From positions 1 through 45,506 of the forward strand of contig JABEUN010000080.1 in NCBI GenBank assembly GCA_013044385.1: a DNA stretch of 45,506 nt. Direction: 5' to 3'. Source of the DNA: Acidimicrobiaceae bacterium. GTDB taxonomy: Bacteria > Actinomycetota > Acidimicrobiia > Acidimicrobiales > Acidimicrobiaceae. Of the stretch, positions 25,377-32,929 are shown one piece after another; the first letter of the stretch is position 1; each line of letters begins with the position of its first letter. Position numbers and translations under genes: made by a program. The notes under the pieces were generated by a model, which saw nothing but the letters and a program-made list of their open reading frames with translations, was not told where the DNA came from and searched no databases.

Positions 25377-26114
25377 TTAGACCGCCCTCTCAATCCATCC
25401 GAGCAGTATGGCCATTACCCGAGGATCCGCCCTGAGGTTATCCCCGACCGCAGCGATCCTGTGTAGTTCCGCCGCCGACGCAAGCTCAACGAGTTCCCTC
25501 GAAACCTTCAGGTTTGACGCCGTACGATCCTGGGCTGTGATGATCATCCAGGGCCGTGCACCTATATCTCCGACGAGCCTTTCAGGTTCTATCTCATCTA
25601 GCTCCCGCTTGAATGACTCGATTCCGAGGTCCCCTACCTTCACCTTCAAATTCCTGAGCAGTTCTAGGTAGCCGGCATGGTCAAACTCCTCTTCGAAGAC
25701 GAAAAGCGTCGGATCCACGCTCGCAATTCCGACCACTTCTCGAACACCAGCTGCTGCTTCAACGACGGAAAGCGCTGCGAACTCATAGCCGATGAGCACC
25801 ACCGATTCGCCCAAGCCATCTCCGATCACGAACCGAGTGGCGGCTTGAAGGTCCTCGGCCCAGACGGCCGGACTAAATGTTCCCGTTGACCCCCCCACTC
25901 CGGAAAGTGAAACTGCAACCACGGTAGAACTCGTCAGAAGTGAGAGGTGCTCCGCGTACTCTGCGTCCAGATGTCCTTGATCCGATACCGTACTTCCGAC
26001 CGGCGCCCCGAAAGTAGCTATCACGACCGGATTGCCCTTTATCTTCCCCTGGTTTTGTGACCTGTGAAGGTGCGCGTCCAGCGATCTCCCTTCGTGTTCG
26101 ATAGAGAATCGCAT
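25377..26114 (-). CDS. Alpha/beta-hydrolase-fold protein, catalytic residues replaced
   Basis: 245 residues with an alpha/beta-hydrolase pattern: VVIATFGAPVG near 30, VVAVSLSGVGGSTG near 65 and the nucleophile-elbow region VVLIGYEFAAL at 105-115. In the elbow the GxSxG serine is Glu111 (GYEFA). Near the C-terminus VGDNLRADPRV has Asn where related proteins, as I recall them (GHRLR-DPR), have the catalytic His. The fold is therefore probably kept without hydrolase activity. It is divergent from the ATP-grasp pair, with 93 bp between, so a shared function is possible but unproven. Confidence 0.7.
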   Translation of the reverse strand: MRFSIEHEGRSLDAHLHRSQNQGKIKGNPVVIATFGAPVGSTVSDQGHLDAEYAEHLSLLTSSTVVAVSLSGVGGSTGTFSPAVWAEDLQAATRFVIGDGLGESVVLIGYEFAALSVVEAAAGVREVVGIASVDPTLFVFEEEFDHAGYLELLRNLKVKVGDLGIESFKRELDEIEPERLVGDIGARPWMIITAQDRTASNLKVSRELVELASAAELHRIAAVGDNLRADPRVMAILLGWIERAV

Positions 26115-26207: not shown

Positions 26208-27122
26208 GTGCAGATGTGGATCGTTTCAAACGTCGAACTGGGTGACAAGTTCAGCGAACATGCGACGCGGCACCTCTTGGCTGCAGAGAAGTTGGGTATC
26301 GACGCACGGCTGGTTCAGCCGCTAGATCTTGCCTACCTATGCATCCCCGGACGGTCTGAAACTTTGGTGGTATCAGAGAATTGGACCCAATGGGGATCCC
26401 CAAAGGTTTGCCTTTTCCTTGACAAGGATCATGAGACGGCCCACGGACTTGAACAAGCCGGCGTCCGGGTAGTCAATTCCGCCACAACCATAGAGCAGTG
26501 TGCTGATAAACGGACAATGCACCGCTCTCTCAATAGGGCTGGAATACCTGCCCCCACAACTGCCATCCTGGCAAGGCCATATCCAAGGCAGCCACACCAC
26601 CGCGACCAAGTTTTGCGTGTTGCAAACCTGATGGGATACCCACTTGTAGTAAAGGCAGCCAAGGGGTCGTTCGGCGCCCAGGTTTTCGTCGCAAACCATC
26701 CAGAAGAACTTCTCGACCTTTTAGATACAGAAAACCTTCAGGAGGTGCTGCTCCAAGAGTTGATCACCACCTCTCACGGGGTTGGAATTAGGGTGCACGT
26801 AGTAGCTGGAAGGACCGTAGCCGCACTTCGTCAGCAGAGCACTGATGGCCGACTCCAGGCGAACCTGACCCAGGGTGGTATCGGCGAATCGATCAAGCCA
26901 TCCGAGCTCGAGTCCAATTTGGCAATCGCGGCGGCCGATGCGGTCGGGGCGTTCTATGCGGGTGTAGATCTCTTAGTTGGGCCCGAAGACTCACGCCTAG
27001 TCTGTGAAGTGAATTCAAACGCGCACGTGTCAAGACTCAGCGAGATTACGGGGATCGACTGCGCCGGAATTCTGATCAAAGAACTCCAGACTCACTTCTT
27101 CAATTTCGACCGGTCGCCGTGA
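26208..27122 (+). CDS. RimK-like ATP-grasp ligase 1
   Basis: 304 residues with an ATP-grasp fold: pre-ATP-grasp domain 1-95, CADKRTMHRSLNRAGIPAPTT near 98-118, the ATP-binding lysine and small loop in VVKAAKGSFGAQV (147-159), the adenine-contacting QE pair near 183, and the metal site in AGVDLL (251-256) and CEVNSNAH (266-273). These enzymes join a carboxylate (via acyl phosphate) to an amine. The nearest named family is RimK/LysX; the substrate is unknown. It starts at GTG 26208 or ATG 26214, with only a weak ribosome site, and overlaps the next ligase by 4 nt (GTGA). Confidence 0.85.
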   Translation: MQMWIVSNVELGDKFSEHATRHLLAAEKLGIDARLVQPLDLAYLCIPGRSETLVVSENWTQWGSPKVCLFLDKDHETAHGLEQAGVRVVNSATTIEQCADKRTMHRSLNRAGIPAPTTAILARPYPRQPHHRDQVLRVANLMGYPLVVKAAKGSFGAQVFVANHPEELLDLLDTENLQEVLLQELITTSHGVGIRVHVVAGRTVAALRQQSTDGRLQANLTQGGIGESIKPSELESNLAIAAADAVGAFYAGVDLLVGPEDSRLVCEVNSNAHVSRLSEITGIDCAGILIKELQTHFFNFDRSP

Positions 27123-27955
27123 GTACCTCGGCAAGACCGGGCTGGTTACTCTACCGGAATGAGGATATCGCCAAGAACCGCTTCTTCATTGAACAGCTGA
27201 CTAGCCAGCTCGCAAATCACAATCTCAAGGTTCGACTGGTGCCACTTGAGTCGCTTAACTTCAGAATCGATTCAGCCGCAATCGAGCTGCCAGATTTCGT
27301 CATCAACAGGAGCTTCAGTGACGGCGCGACAGAAGTATTAGAGTCCCTTGGCATACCCTGTTTCAACCGATCATCGATCTCCAGGATCGGGAACAACAAG
27401 GCACTTACGCTCGCGCTCGCAGACAGACTCGGCATACCTACGATGGATTCGCTGGTCTACTACGGACCATCTGGACATCTAAGTCCCCCTCTCGATGGCC
27501 CCGTCGTAACCAAGGCCGTCGGCGGTCACGGTGGCGCACAAGTCAGCATGACAAGCAGTTTCAATGAGGAGTTGGTGTGTAACGCGACACCAGAAGAGCC
27601 GGTACTGGTCCAACGTTTCAACAGCAGAGGTTCGACCGATCATCGCTGTTACATCTTCGCCACCGGAGCCAGATTCTGGGTGCAAAGATCGGCTACTTCA
27701 CCGTCAGAGTTCAGATCAAATATCTCACTCGGCGGGGTCGTGAATCCTTACGAGCCAACCAAAGCTGAAGTGTTGATCGCTGATGCCATGTTCGAGAGCC
27801 TCGGCCCAGGAAATTACGCAGTCGATCTCATTGAGTGTGAATCGGGATTCGCACTCAATGAGATCGAGGACTCCTGTGGATATAGAGCTCTTTACATACT
27901 GAAGCTGTGCAATCCTGCCCAGCTAATAGTTAGCAATCTGGCTGAACGCCTCTAA
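27119..27955 (+). CDS. RimK-like ATP-grasp ligase 2
   Basis: 278 residues, a second and clearly different ATP-grasp enzyme. INRSFSDG and CFNRSSISRIGNNKALTLAL (81-100) end the pre-domain; VVTKAVGGHGGAQV (129-142) is the glycine-rich ATP loop with Lys132; LVQRF near 163 contacts adenine; FRSNISLGG (198-206) and YAVDLIE...LNEIED (233-251) form the substrate and metal site. It is translationally coupled to ligase 1, so the two probably act in sequence or as a complex. No acceptor peptide or LysW-like carrier gene was found beside them. The 3' end overlaps the convergent AhpD-like gene by 4 nt. Confidence 0.85.
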   Translation: MSTSARPGWLLYRNEDIAKNRFFIEQLTSQLANHNLKVRLVPLESLNFRIDSAAIELPDFVINRSFSDGATEVLESLGIPCFNRSSISRIGNNKALTLALADRLGIPTMDSLVYYGPSGHLSPPLDGPVVTKAVGGHGGAQVSMTSSFNEELVCNATPEEPVLVQRFNSRGSTDHRCYIFATGARFWVQRSATSPSEFRSNISLGGVVNPYEPTKAEVLIADAMFESLGPGNYAVDLIECESGFALNEIEDSCGYRALYILKLCNPAQLIVSNLAERL

Positions 27956-28362
27956 GGCTGAGTGGGCGGTGCGGCTGAACTAGGTACTTGGGGCCGCTTT
28001 GCGTCGTATTCTGCCTTGAACTCCACAAACGCTTCGTACGCTCTTGGTCCATAGACCGTCCCGGGTCCGCCGGTGAGCAGGATCGCCACTCCGATTGCCT
28101 CAGCAACCTGTTCATTGGTCGTTCCCTTTCGGGCAGCAGATCTGGCATGTGAGGCAATACATCCATCACACTGGTTGGCTACAGATATCGCTATTGCCAG
28201 GGCCTCTTTGACCGCTGCAGAGAGAACGCCTTCAGCCATGGCTCCCTTGCTCATCTCCGCGAATCCCTTGTAGACGTCGGGAATGTAGGACCTCAACTCC
28301 TTGGCCGGAGCAGAAAGGTCCTCAAGAACCTGGTGATGCCGATGGTCCAACTCTTCTGTCAC
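27952..28362 (-). CDS. AhpD-like carboxymuconolactone decarboxylase family protein
   Basis: 136 residues, mostly helical. The peroxidase-type motif CDGC (Cys65, Cys68) is followed by His72 in IASHARSAARKG, as in AhpD and related alkylhydroperoxidases. The real PcaC activity in this window is in PcaL, which lacks this CxxC, so this protein is more likely a thiol-dependent peroxidase or redox protein than a pathway enzyme. The C-terminus is a Pro/Ser/Ala tail. Confidence 0.85.
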   Translation of the reverse strand: MTEELDHRHHQVLEDLSAPAKELRSYIPDVYKGFAEMSKGAMAEGVLSAAVKEALAIAISVANQCDGCIASHARSAARKGTTNEQVAEAIGVAILLTGGPGTVYGPRAYEAFVEFKAEYDAKRPQVPSSAAPPTQP

Positions 28363-28500: not shown

Positions 28501-28872
28501 TCATACCGCGGATACCGCAGCCCGAAGCAGCTCCACTGCCTCGTCGGCGAGAGCTTTCATGCCGGGCGAATCCATCATCATTGTCGGGTCAACGGCCGAT
28601 ATCCTCACCTGATTTCCCTCTTGCGACAGCACCACGTTGCAGGGCATCATGAGGGCAACCGTGGGATCTGCCTCCAACGCCCGGTTTGCAAAACCTGGAT
28701 TGCAGGCTCCAAGAATCTTGAGGGGGTTCCTTTCGACACCGATCTTCGCCTTCAGTGTCGCGGCCACGTCGATCTCGGTCAGAACTCCAAAACCCCTTTT
28801 CACGAGTTCTTCCCTCACCCTGGGCTCTACCGTTGCAATGTCACCATCGACGAACTTCTCTATCGCTTCCAT
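28501..28872 (-). CDS. DUF302 domain protein
   Basis: 123 residues. The family core is visible: KRGFGVLTEIDVAATLKAK (25-43), ILGACNPGFANRAL (53-66) and MPCNVVLSQEG (76-86), with Cys57 and Cys78 conserved. The function of the domain is unknown; in other bacteria it often sits with sulfur or metal stress genes. The ATG at 28872 is chosen over the open-frame start 28935, because GGGAG lies 8 nt before it and the extension would cover an inverted repeat. Confidence 0.85.
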   Translation of the reverse strand: MEAIEKFVDGDIATVEPRVREELVKRGFGVLTEIDVAATLKAKIGVERNPLKILGACNPGFANRALEADPTVALMMPCNVVLSQEGNQVRISAVDPTMMMDSPGMKALADEAVELLRAAVSAV

Positions 28873-28905
28873 CAGCCGAACTCCCTCTAAAGTACAAAGA
28901 AAACT

Positions 28906-28921
28906 ATACCCTGAATGGTAT
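28906..28921 (-). promoter_or_regulatory. CsoR/CstR-like inverted repeat upstream of the DUF302 gene
   Basis: ATACC-N6-GGTAT is a 5-bp inverted repeat 34 bp upstream of the DUF302 start. Its outline resembles the ATACC...GGTAT sites of CsoR-family copper and persulfide repressors, although the C/G runs in the centre are shorter than usual. Confidence 0.35.
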
Positions 28922-29490
28922 CCTGTATCCACCATAGTCGGGCCGCCGCCTCAACTCTGGCCAAGTTATCCGCCTGATACCCTGGCCCGCGATCCGGTAC
29001 GAACTTCAACAATGATCACGTCAGTTGACCATATGCAGACCCAGGGAAGGATCGATCCATCTGGATCATGAGTACAGATCGAAAGCAGTCCTACCCAAAA
29101 GTCCTGGCTGACGAGTTGGCACCACAACGAATCAACCAGCGAGATGGGAGGAGTATGAACCCTATTCTGCAGTTTGGAAGGAAATTCGCCGAAGTACCCT
29201 GGTCGAGAAGTTGCCGCTTGGGCATCGACATCTCGGGCAATCCCAGGACAAAGTTGAACCCCCCATCCAGATCCTTTAGAGAACTACTGACCTGCTTACT
29301 ACCAGCGACGGCCGTAGGAGTCACTACGAGCTAGTTCTGCTGCGCCCACGCCGTTTGTACGTATCTGAGGATGACGTAACGTCCAATCGCCTGCGTTAGG
29401 CATTTATTGCCCGGCCGGACCCCACGACTACTCAACTTTTCGCCCCTATAGTGGCCGCGCTGACCGGACACATTCCAAGCGTTCTCGGCG
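28922..29490. other. Long intergenic stretch without a recognisable gene
   Basis: Open frames here are short, have no recognisable domain and lack ribosome sites. A small inverted repeat GACGT-A-ACGTC lies at 29373-29383. No tRNA, repeat or mobile element end was seen. Confidence 0.4.
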
Positions 29491-30831
29491 TTACTCACCC
29501 GACTTCTTCAATGGTATGCCTCCCCAAGACGTCTCGGTAGTTGACATGTCCGCCTTTCCAACAACCGTCGAACCCTTGTAGAAGAGGACAGATATCGGAT
29601 CGTTGCACACTCCGTTACAGCTGGATGTGGTTCTTCCCATTGGCAAGACGAAGAAATGCCAGCCCGAAACGGACGATGGGAGCACGAGACTCGTTTCTGA
29701 CTTCCTAGCGAGCTTTACTGAGACGCTTGTGACCCAAGTTGGAACCATACCCGAGACAAACTCCTGACCGTTAGGCGCATTGTCCCAGTTCAAACTTGCA
29801 CGGGCCAGATTCGAGCCGCTCGCTGTCACCACCTGGTCGGCATAGACTATCTCCATCCAGGCGTTGCCGGGCTCGACAGCTGCTGAAAAGACCCACGGGC
29901 TCCCAGAAACGCTCCCATAGGCGAGTTCGGTACCACCGAGTGGAACCATCGGCGTATTGATCGGCGGTGAGGCGTGGGTTCCTGGCGAACACAGCCCGCC
30001 CTCCAAGGCTTTTCCGTCGCTGATGCAGCTCTGTCGGGCCATATCAATTCGGATTCCGTCTGCTATGTCGACAAGTCGGGAAGCACTGATTCCGCTCCCA
30101 TCGAGTTGCAGACCAACAGTGGGACTCATCCGCCACTGAAGAACTATCTGTGGAGTCCCACTGGAAGCTGTCGAATTGAACAGTCCGGGTGGTCCTACCT
30201 GACTACTCCGGTCAACTTTGCAGTAAGTTGATGCGCTAGATCCGGGGCAAAACACATCTATAGTTGTCGTTCGTCTTCCACCGACGAACCCCACTCCCTT
30301 GGTTACCACAGGAGCACTCGATAGAACTTCCATCAGCGCAGTTTGACCGTTTACAGCTCTGACGCTCAACTTTGCATTCGCGATCCCTCCGGGCGGTGGT
30401 GAGGTGAAATCCGGGTTGAGTATGCCCTGGGTAAATGTGAATGTAAAGGAGGCGCGCTCGGTGCCCACCTGCCCTCCATACGTAATGGAGCGCGTGTAGC
30501 TTGCGGGCTCTGTCACCACGCTGGTCTGCCTGTCCGATAACAGTCGAAAGCCACTCGGAAGGTAACTGAAATTAATGGCATGATTTAGTAGGTGGGGAGG
30601 TCCCGACGATACAAACGCTGTCACCTGGGAACTCAAGGTTGGGGTCGGGGAGCCATCTCCATGAGCGTTGATCAACCCTACGGAGCCGGCCACTACCCCG
30701 ACAACGCCTAGTACCACACCTCGCCTTCGCCTACTTCGGGTTCGAATCCGGCTCCTGAGTTCGGCCACCGAAGGAGCAGAAGCAAGCTCGACCTGCTGGA
30801 GCTCTACGACAAGGTCATCTAGTCTCGACAC
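29491..30831 (-). CDS. Membrane-anchored protein, probable anti-sigma partner
   Basis: 446 residues: about 35 N-terminal residues, a basic stretch (RTRSRRRRG), one transmembrane segment at about 38-57 (VVLGVVGVVAGSVGLINA), and a long Ser/Thr/Gly-rich outer domain without a known motif. It starts at GTG 4 bp after the ECF sigma stop with AGGTGA upstream. The position and the short cytoplasmic head plus single membrane segment are those of an anti-sigma or sensor protein. No zinc-binding HxxxCxxC motif is present, so this role is inferred from context. Confidence 0.7.
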   Translation of the reverse strand: MSRLDDLVVELQQVELASAPSVAELRSRIRTRSRRRRGVVLGVVGVVAGSVGLINAHGDGSPTPTLSSQVTAFVSSGPPHLLNHAINFSYLPSGFRLLSDRQTSVVTEPASYTRSITYGGQVGTERASFTFTFTQGILNPDFTSPPPGGIANAKLSVRAVNGQTALMEVLSSAPVVTKGVGFVGGRRTTTIDVFCPGSSASTYCKVDRSSQVGPPGLFNSTASSGTPQIVLQWRMSPTVGLQLDGSGISASRLVDIADGIRIDMARQSCISDGKALEGGLCSPGTHASPPINTPMVPLGGTELAYGSVSGSPWVFSAAVEPGNAWMEIVYADQVVTASGSNLARASLNWDNAPNGQEFVSGMVPTWVTSVSVKLARKSETSLVLPSSVSGWHFFVLPMGRTTSSCNGVCNDPISVLFYKGSTVVGKADMSTTETSWGGIPLKKSGE

Positions 30832-30835
30832 TCAT

Positions 30836-31348
30836 TCACCTGCTCTTTCCAATTGACTCATCATCGCTGAGCAAAAAGGCCAGTCTTGCCCTCGCATCCG
30901 AAAGCGATCGGGAAACCGAACCTCTCGTTAATCCCAGAACTTCAGCGATCTCAGTCTCCTTCATGTCTGCCACATACCTCATCACGATCACCTCGCGCTG
31001 ACGAACCGGAAGTGCTCCGACCATCGCCCAGATCTCGCCCGCCGGAGCCGGCATGTTTTGCGGGGGAGGGAGTTTCAAAAGGAGTCTGCGTTCAAGGTTC
31101 ATTCGCCGCATCCTTCGACGAAAAAGGTTGATCGCCACCTTGTATGTCCAGCCCGCCGGAGAAGGAAACCGACTGATCCGAGACCAGTGTGCCAAGGATC
31201 GACAGAAAGCTTCGTCTACAACCTCCTTGGACAACTCCAGATCACCGGTTACCAATAGGAGCGAGGCAAGGAGTCTCGGATACTCGACCTCATACCACTG
31301 AGCAAACTCTGCTGCGAGGATATCGGCGGCGCGCCTTGATCGGCTCAC
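30836..31348 (-). CDS. ECF-type RNA polymerase sigma factor
   Basis: 170 residues. Region 2 lies at about 15-90 (LLASLLLVTGDLELSKEVVDEAF, then AGWTYKVAINLFRRRMRR); region 4 at about 108-165 (LPVRQREVIVMRYVADMKETEIAEVLGL, TRGSVSRSLSDARARL). There is no region 1 or 3, as expected for group 4 sigma factors. It is followed directly by a membrane protein that could hold it inactive. The regulon is unknown. Confidence 0.9.
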   Translation of the reverse strand: MSRSRRAADILAAEFAQWYEVEYPRLLASLLLVTGDLELSKEVVDEAFCRSLAHWSRISRFPSPAGWTYKVAINLFRRRMRRMNLERRLLLKLPPPQNMPAPAGEIWAMVGALPVRQREVIVMRYVADMKETEIAEVLGLTRGSVSRSLSDARARLAFLLSDDESIGKSR

Positions 31349-31855
31349 GAGTTAGCCAGATCAAAAATGTTGACGTCTCTTATGGAGTACACGTATTCAA
31401 TAAGTCACAATTGACCCAGAATGTTGAGTGCCACCGTAAAATCTGCGAATCCACTTTCGAGTTCATCCAGCACCCAGTTGCTCGATTACGCCAAAAAAGC
31501 TCGGCCACCTACTACGCCATAACTCCGACAAATCACCTGCCAAGTTGACGAACCCGTATTCTCCTACTACTTCTCGATCTCTTTGGATGACTCGATTGGT
31601 TGACCTACTCTACAAGACAGTGCCTTAGTACACCTATTGATAGACAGGTCGAGCGACTTCTGCTCCAGTGGATGCTCACTGTCCGATCGACACACCTCAC
31701 CGATCCACCCCAGATAGAAGGGTCGCACTTTGCTCAGCACGCTGAGGCCGAGAAAATCCCGGATCAACACACCTAGTCGATCGAGTCTCGATTCAGATCA
31801 AGTGTCCCTGTTCAACAGAGCCCGCACGATTTTCAACAATGGCCCAAAGGCCATA
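31349..31855. other. Intergenic stretch, no gene supported
   Basis: A 67-codon minus-strand frame (31567-31770) is open but has no domain and only a weak ribosome site. The rest is rich in stop codons. The promoter of the ECF sigma gene should lie in the first 100 bp but was not clearly recognised. Confidence 0.35.
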
Positions 31856-32383
31856 TTATCTGCGCCGACCATATCTTTCCGTGGAGTGAGTATTGGCACG
31901 AATGTGCAGAATATCAAGGAAGAATGCCGCCATGACCGTCGCCAGCAGGAACACCAGCGCCGTTGCCGACCCGCTTCCAGCGCCAAACAATAGAAGCACA
32001 AACGCGAGAAGTCCGAAAGCATTGATGAGTATGAGATGCCTGCCAAGCATGCCGCCATCGCTCAGTTTGGAGCTGTCCACAATCAATATCGAGAACACCT
32101 CGCCAAGAAATTGAGTCTTATACAAGCGCTCCTTGCGCAACTCAAACTCCGAGGAAGTCAGCACTCCCTGCTTCCAACTCTCGAGAAGTTGCTCTTCAGC
32201 CAACTCCCTGTCATCATGGGAGGCGAGCTCCTGCCATATAAGGTCCTGTGATGCGTCCACGACTGCCGCCCTCGTTAAAGTACGTTCTACGCACCAGATC
32301 CAACTCGAGCCGGCATATGGACGGTCAGCTCCTAGTAGAGGTGCACAATAGGAATCGGACCGTAGATCAATCAACTGAAGCAT
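31856..32383 (-). CDS. Small membrane protein with SHOCT-like segment
   Basis: About 175 residues from ATG 32383 (the frame is open to 32527, but that part overlaps the NUDIX gene). An acidic central helix region with EEQLLESWKQGVLTSSEFE resembles the short SHOCT oligomerisation motif. It is followed by two transmembrane segments near the C-terminus (LILINAFGLLAFVLLLFGAG and ATALVFLLATVMAAFFLDIL) and a basic tail. No function is recognised. It is divergent from the NUDIX gene. Confidence 0.6.
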   Translation of the reverse strand: MLQLIDLRSDSYCAPLLGADRPYAGSSWIWCVERTLTRAAVVDASQDLIWQELASHDDRELAEEQLLESWKQGVLTSSEFELRKERLYKTQFLGEVFSILIVDSSKLSDGGMLGRHLILINAFGLLAFVLLLFGAGSGSATALVFLLATVMAAFFLDILHIRANTHSTERYGRRR

Positions 32384-32509
32384 GGTCGCCCTAATTACCT
32401 CTGTGCAATTTTTGGAAAGGAACCTTCGGATCACCTTCAGATTCAACTCCGACCTTGGAGTCAAGTTGGGCAATACATTTTTTAAGCTCAAAATGGGGAG
32501 CTGGTGGTT

Positions 32510-32929
32510 ATGCCTGAAGGCACACAAACAACGGTGATCTCGGCGGTGGTAGTACTGATTCGAGACGCGGCTGGCTATGTTCTGCTTACGTCATCCTCTG
32601 CCACGGCGAACGGCCCCTGGTCACACATCGGCGGTGGAGTTAGCCAAGGTGAGGACCCAGTGAGCGCGGCGAGAAGGATCGCACATGACGAATGCGGATT
32701 GGAAATTGAGGTTGGAAGGCTACTGACCTACCTCGCCGGACCCGCCTACCAGGTGTTGTACGAATGTGGTGCCGACACCACCTATGAAGCGTCCGTGTTC
32801 AGCGCGTCGATCCTGGGATTTTCCAGCGACGCCCCAATGCGCACCAAGTGGTTCGACCTTGGCGAACTTGCCGTCGCGAATCTTGACGAGTTCGCTAGCG
32901 CCTCGATTGCTGACCTCGGTCTTGGGTAG
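32510..32929 (+). CDS. NUDIX domain protein with degenerate box
   Basis: 139 residues with the NUDIX alpha/beta/alpha pattern. The box runs from Gly42 to Leu64 (GGVSQGEDPVSAARRIAHDE, then CGL). Compared with Gx5Ex7REUxEExGU, the Glu after Arg56 is Ile57 and the first Glu of the EE pair is Asp60; Glu48 and Glu61 remain. Hydrolase activity may thus be weak or altered, or the protein may bind a nucleotide without cutting it. ATG 32510 with GGGGAG upstream is preferred to GTG 32504. Confidence 0.8.
   Translation: MPEGTQTTVISAVVVLIRDAAGYVLLTSSSATANGPWSHIGGGVSQGEDPVSAARRIAHDECGLEIEVGRLLTYLAGPAYQVLYECGADTTYEASVFSASILGFSSDAPMRTKWFDLGELAVANLDEFASASIADLGLG

Follow-up and report, generated by a model that had tools for sequence, protein, structure and literature searches.

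RimK-type ATP-grasp ligases of known function attach amino acids to coenzymes, carriers and ribosomal proteins, and the established chemistry of the superfamily is the activation of a carboxylate by ATP and Mg2+ followed by the attack of an amino acid. RimK modifies ribosomal protein S6, ArgX and LysX act on a protein carrier, and microviridin clusters contain two tandem ATP-grasp enzymes. The RimK-like MptN and CofF are the α-glutamate ligases of tetrahydromethanopterin and F420, respectively, and thus join glutamate onto a coenzyme. FolC is the synthase of the folate glutamate tail. In Methylorubrum, the C1 coenzyme methylofuran receives its glutamate tail from two ATP-grasp ligases, MyfA and MyfB, working successively (PMC8141765).

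The locus analysed here contains two RimK-like genes, termed A and B, located within a 45,506-nucleotide stretch of an Acidimicrobiaceae genome (assembly GCA_013044385.1, contig JABEUN010000080.1), hereafter the window. As with MyfA/MyfB, two different ATP-grasp ligases would act in turn, a likeness taken from the published description; MyfA resembles MfnD, and the neighbourhood of A and B showed no methylofuran genes. MptN and CofF resemble A but differ from the pair in being single enzymes without a partner B. A first-pass annotation of the window had read A and B as a coupled RimK-like pair lacking a known acceptor. This reading is partly supported: the pair is real, conserved and coupled, and no acceptor for it is described in the open papers searched. 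No description of the pair itself was found in those open-licence papers or in the collections searched; it may be described elsewhere.

The two ligase genes of the window

Gene A occupies positions 26208–27122 of the + strand and encodes a 304-residue RimK-like ATP-grasp ligase (Pfam RimK, 5e-37). Gene B, at positions 27119–27955 of the + strand, encodes a 278-residue divergent RimK/ArgX-like ATP-grasp ligase, whose Pfam RimK score of 30.1 bits is weak yet exceeds the gathering score of 21. The two frames, confirmed where the first-pass annotation had placed them, share the four nucleotides GTGA (27119–27122, + strand), such that the GTG start of B begins at 27119 and the TGA stop of A spans 27120–27122. 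The overlap is likely to couple the translation of the two genes. Both proteins belong to the RimK-like ATP-grasp superfamily by the Pfam cut-off, their invariant residues and their predicted folds. A is the more canonical member, with 177 bits to TIGR00768 (rimK_fam; cut-off 143), and B is far more divergent, with 68 bits, under the cut-off of that model. The strong divergence between the partners noted earlier amounts to 22% amino acid sequence identity across 178 residues.

Neither protein reaches the equivalog cut-off of any of the finer models. A and B score 81 and 17 bits, respectively, to NF007764 (PRK10446; RimK S6--L-glutamate ligase; cut-off 331), and 110 and 41 bits to LysX (cut-off 275.6). 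A is far below the cut-offs of MptN (NF040720; 98 vs 350 bits) and CofF (TIGR04443; 57 vs 300 bits), and B scores 22 bits to MptN. The AlphaFold models of A and B each have a mean pLDDT of 89. Comparison with the PDB identified RimK and LysX as the nearest folds to the A model; the graspetide ligase PsnB is also among its matches, RimK and LysX being closer. The best fold match of the B model is ArgX (PDB accession number 3vpb), with LysX also near. The best solved relatives of the two proteins share about 18–26% sequence identity with them, so that, with the equivalog cut-offs also missed, neither closely resembles an enzyme whose substrate is known. RimK is the nearest solved fold and profile to A within the same superfamily, and the two differ in that A is only 24–25% identical to RimK, misses the RimK equivalog cut-off, has a strict partner B and is present in archaea.

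In A, K149, GSFG153-156, R195, D254, E267 and N269 are invariant in 19 family sequences, and K149, GS.G, R195, N219, D254, E267 and N269 are kept in 26 diverse sequences. From E267 onwards, A reads E267-V-N269-x-N271-x-H273. In B, K132, GHGG136-139, R176, D236, E248 and E250-D251 are invariant in 20 family sequences, and K132, G.GG, Q165, R176, N201, D236, E248, E250, D251, G254 and R256 are kept in 30 diverse sequences. The ATP-binding lysines, glycine-rich loops and metal-binding acidic residues recognized earlier in the window are thus invariant within each family, and nearly all of them persist across phyla. In place of the usual ExN metal/glutamate motif, B carries the signature NEIEDxVGxR (more broadly NEIEDxxGxR, comprising E248, E250, D251, G254 and R256), in which the Asn of ExN is replaced by a fixed Glu, E250. 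The NEIED segment resembles the NELND of ArgX (NELNDVPEF).

In Pseudomonas aeruginosa RimK, residues R189, N262 and R64 are among those that touch the bound glutamate chain (PMC10092738). Sequence alignment places R189 and N262 at R195 and N269 of A and at R176 and E250 of B. R64 probably corresponds to R64 of B and to K73 of A, the latter assigned by strand reading because the automatic alignment is gapped there. As A retains both the Arg and the Asn that hold glutamate in RimK, it looks, from its sequence, suited to glutamate-like chemistry.

The locus in Acidimicrobiaceae

A and B are enclosed by two genes of the opposite strand. Upstream and divergent from A lies a gene for a degenerate α/β-hydrolase-like protein (25377–26114, − strand; Pfam E value 0.004, below the cut-off). 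Downstream, a convergent gene for an AhpD/carboxymuconolactone-decarboxylase-like protein (27952–28362, − strand; Pfam CMD, 3.5e-19) overlaps B by 4 nt. Across 21 Acidimicrobiaceae loci, window included, the order pseudo-hydrolase(−), A(+), B(+), AhpD-like(−) is preserved wherever there is contig sequence to show it. In every one of them, the AhpD-like gene adjoins B, and the hydrolase-like gene is present in 19, the contigs of the other two ending short of its place. The nucleophile-elbow Ser is absent from the hydrolase-like protein in all aligned Acidimicrobiaceae members, which, with the Pfam match below the cut-off, agrees with its earlier designation as a pseudoenzyme. The four-gene block is constant, but the left flank past the hydrolase-like gene varies, some genera having ThiE/HhH-GPD there and others a two-component system. 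The pair is absent from two Acidimicrobiaceae genera, g3 and g6.

Neither the hydrolase-like nor the AhpD-like gene accompanies the pair in the Bacillota, archaeal and other loci checked outside Acidimicrobiaceae. Both were therefore rejected as core parts of the system, and would be family-specific accessories; the hydrolase-like gene stays with the pair only within Acidimicrobiaceae, and its inclusion in a core system is not supported. Further downstream, in the interval from the AhpD-like gene to an acyl-CoA dehydrogenase gene, the window (28501–32527) has a DUF302 gene at the place taken by a DUF1707-like gene in other genera (loci L025 and L041–L043). The same region of the window additionally contains a sigma factor, a 446-residue protein and a weakly DUF1707-like ORF.

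Distribution of the pair and its neighbours

A profile-guided scan of 85,000 genomes for B yielded 80 retained loci, five of them from Acidimicrobiaceae; many of the organism names are labels of metagenome-assembled genomes, and the neighbourhood genes were called with a simple ORF chooser. The scan found relatives of B in Bacilli, Clostridia, Methanomassiliicoccales, Thermoguttaceae and Kiritimatiellae, so that the carriers include Bacillota, archaea and Planctomycetota. In 75 of the 80 loci, B directly follows A, and in one more (L076) the two are fused. With A next to or fused with B in 76 of 80 loci and the block intact in Acidimicrobiaceae, the pair is conserved in relatives. The commonest A/B junction is the 4-nt overlap seen in the window (31 of 75 loci). 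Among the four loci without an upstream A, two are at contig ends (L046 and L121) and two, from Kiritimatiellae, have a CoaC-like gene in its place (L087 and L104). A and B are a conserved, coupled RimK-like pair that travels through bacteria and archaea, and much more than a local curiosity.

The distribution of the pair is patchy. In evenly drawn samples, each count including the centre genome, a known carrier, the pair was found in 16 of 250 Bacilli genomes, in 1 of 299 from the phylum of a Clostridia carrier and in 4 of 145 from the archaeal phylum. Among the loci inspected, other Actinomycetota have only lone RimK-like genes and no B. Culturable carriers within Bacillales include Peribacillus, Sporosarcina and Virgibacillus. 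In a tree of A and B, the archaea, the Planococcaceae and the Peribacillus/Virgibacillus clade stay separate.

Several loci depart from the common arrangement. In two Kiritimatiellae, B occurs without A directly after a CoaC-like decarboxylase gene (L087:50-1488 and L181:8915-10288), with a 4-nt overlap between the two genes in L087. A replacement of CoaB by B was rejected, as both genomes encode a separate CoaB domain elsewhere. Locus L084 (2-2696) is a run of three ligase genes, in which B is preceded by two A-like ORFs. In one Peribacillus frigoritolerans genome (L092:7084-7886), A is broken into two overlapping frames, which probably reflects a frameshift or a sequencing error.

Outside the window's family, the one neighbour that recurs in both bacteria and archaea is folC. 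Of 15 evenly drawn Bacilli loci, 12 have it divergently next to A, and each archaeal locus of sufficient length shows the same arrangement. In Bacilli, the ancestral position of folC is presumably next to valS; however, valS is not next door in four of these 12 loci although folC still adjoins A, and mere valS–folC synteny was rejected on this ground. The folC–valS location of the pair in Bacilli, and with it the folC adjacency there, may stem from a single insertion. FolC is single copy in each checked genome that has it. In a small FolC tree, the archaeal proteins are not nested within those of Bacillales (the Kiritimatiellae tip, with a branch length of 5, is probably a wrong ORF), and a transfer of folC-A-B to archaea from Bacillales as a single unit was rejected. 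The lack of nesting in this tree, together with the separate clades in the A and B tree, indicates that the folC link probably originated, or was retained, on more than one occasion. In the window's family, in Clostridia, in Planctomycetota and in the remaining three Bacilli loci of the draw, folC does not adjoin the pair, and no FolC was found in two draft and possibly incomplete carrier genomes, G522 and G531. The first-pass annotation had overlooked the AhpD-like gene, the wide spread of the pair and the recurrent folC, but was right about the coupled, conserved pair itself.

In ten Clostridia and Thalassobacillus loci, the pair is instead preceded by a gene for an N-formylglutamate-amidohydrolase-like protein; its Pfam match is weak, and the motifs SAPH, DLH and QxE(I/M)N are conserved. 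In Clostridia, this gene and the pair are often accompanied by a family of 400–450-residue proteins (L059:5837-7120, L085:5777-7117, L062:5834-7051, L069:5673-7121, L090:899-2203 and L091:8852-10156), which have no Pfam match over the cut-off; in most members, a hydrophobic segment at the C-terminus closes with SxKRxMR. SpoIID-domain proteins are encoded near the pair, at varying positions, in four Clostridia loci (L056:5183-7099, L094:8919-10643, L091 and L099). A search upstream of A for a folate riboswitch or any other riboswitch returned only T-boxes and one tRNA, and a riboswitch at this position was rejected. No transporter, other pathway gene or protein partner recurs beside the pair.

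Candidate acceptors

The preferred reading, to which a probability of about one in three is assigned, is that A and B are co-evolving carboxylate-amine ligases that act in turn on one small-molecule acceptor, the first choice being a folate-type glutamate tail. The acceptor carboxylate would be activated by ATP and Mg2+ as an acyl-phosphate and then coupled to an amino acid through the amino group of the latter. A would most likely add L-glutamate or a similar acidic amino acid, and B would add a further or different residue or use a different carboxylate, with the two working in succession and perhaps forming a complex. The glutamate tail that FolC makes on a folate-type coenzyme would be the acceptor, and the pair would act on it as MyfA/MyfB do on methylofuran or MptN on tetrahydromethanopterin. 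That the two ligases are coupled and both seem active suggests a single acceptor extended in two successive steps. The folate-type tail is the first choice because folC recurs in two domains of life and a glutamate-amide-hydrolase-like gene occurs in another lineage, and it is favoured by R195 and N269 of A, which keep the glutamate-holding residues of RimK. Evidence against the folate-type tail comes from the lineages in which folC is absent beside the pair, from G522 and G531, from the possible single insertion behind the folC position in Bacilli, and from E250 of B, which occupies the position of the glutamate-holding Asn of RimK. That the pair is a two-enzyme module of bacteria and archaea adding an amino-acid extension to folate or another C1 coenzyme, and so making a new coenzyme variant, is doubtful.

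Alternatively, A and B could form the two bonds of a free peptide-like metabolite, such as a dipeptide, a tripeptide or a thiol-like compound, without a prior coenzyme acceptor. This proposal is possible, if tentative. It accommodates the two coupled ligases and their one natural fusion, and the patchy distribution suits an accessory trait; no acceptor gene adjoins the pair, and an AhpD-like redox protein is its fixed neighbour in Acidimicrobiaceae. However, a free peptide leaves the recurrent folC neighbour unexplained, and would sit beside no recurring transporter or other pathway gene.

A protein acceptor, modified by RimK-style addition of amino acids at its C-terminus or on a side chain, is unlikely. 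RimK has the profile and fold closest to A, and ArgX and LysX use a protein carrier. Nonetheless, A misses the RimK-S6 cut-off (81 of 331 bits), and archaea, which carry the pair, to our knowledge lack bacterial S6. S6 and peptidoglycan were both rejected as the common acceptor because of the archaeal carriers. The LysW carrier (TIGR01206) was not found in the window's genome, which is 95% complete, although the search did detect it in the positive-control genomes, so an amino-group carrier route was rejected as well, and no protein partner recurs beside the pair. B resembles LysX and ArgX in its best fold match and its NEIED segment, but the pair differs from these systems in the lack of LysW in the genome, in the LysX cut-off missed by both proteins and in the absence of adjoining lysine or arginine pathway genes.

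It is quite improbable that A alone is catalytic and B is a regulatory or structural partner in an A–B complex. Such a role would fit the far greater divergence of B, the replacement of its ExN Asn by Glu, and the strict pairing with one fusion. Against it, B stands without an adjacent A in Kiritimatiellae, and its K132, glycine loop, R176, D236 and E248/E250 are kept in 30 diverse sequences, which would be unusual for a dead enzyme.

A graspetide-like pathway of the microviridin type, with A and B as ligases and a precursor encoded elsewhere in the genome, is very improbable: tandem ATP-grasp enzymes and PsnB among the fold matches of A recall such clusters, but A is closer to RimK and LysX than to PsnB, and in other phyla no gene resembling a precursor recurs next to the pair (short ORFs were searched for in Acidimicrobiaceae). 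In the spacers and flanks of the Acidimicrobiaceae loci, the search found no conserved short ORF except apparent antisense reading frames, and a precursor peptide beside the pair was rejected. The LysW and short-ORF searches thus agree with the earlier statement that neither a LysW-like carrier nor a precursor peptide lies next to the pair. Given the recurrent folC, a coenzyme tail is a more plausible acceptor than a RiPP precursor or a LysW carrier; the part of the earlier reading that stands is a real, conserved pair whose acceptor is not described in the open papers searched.

For the organisms that carry it, including culturable Bacillales and Methanomassiliicoccales, a conserved two-gene module of this kind points to an unrecognized amidated metabolite or coenzyme form. 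The folates of E. coli carry α-linked glutamates, and we know of no ligase that has been identified for them; a RimK-type folate ligase, if true, would bear on the origin of these α-linked glutamates.
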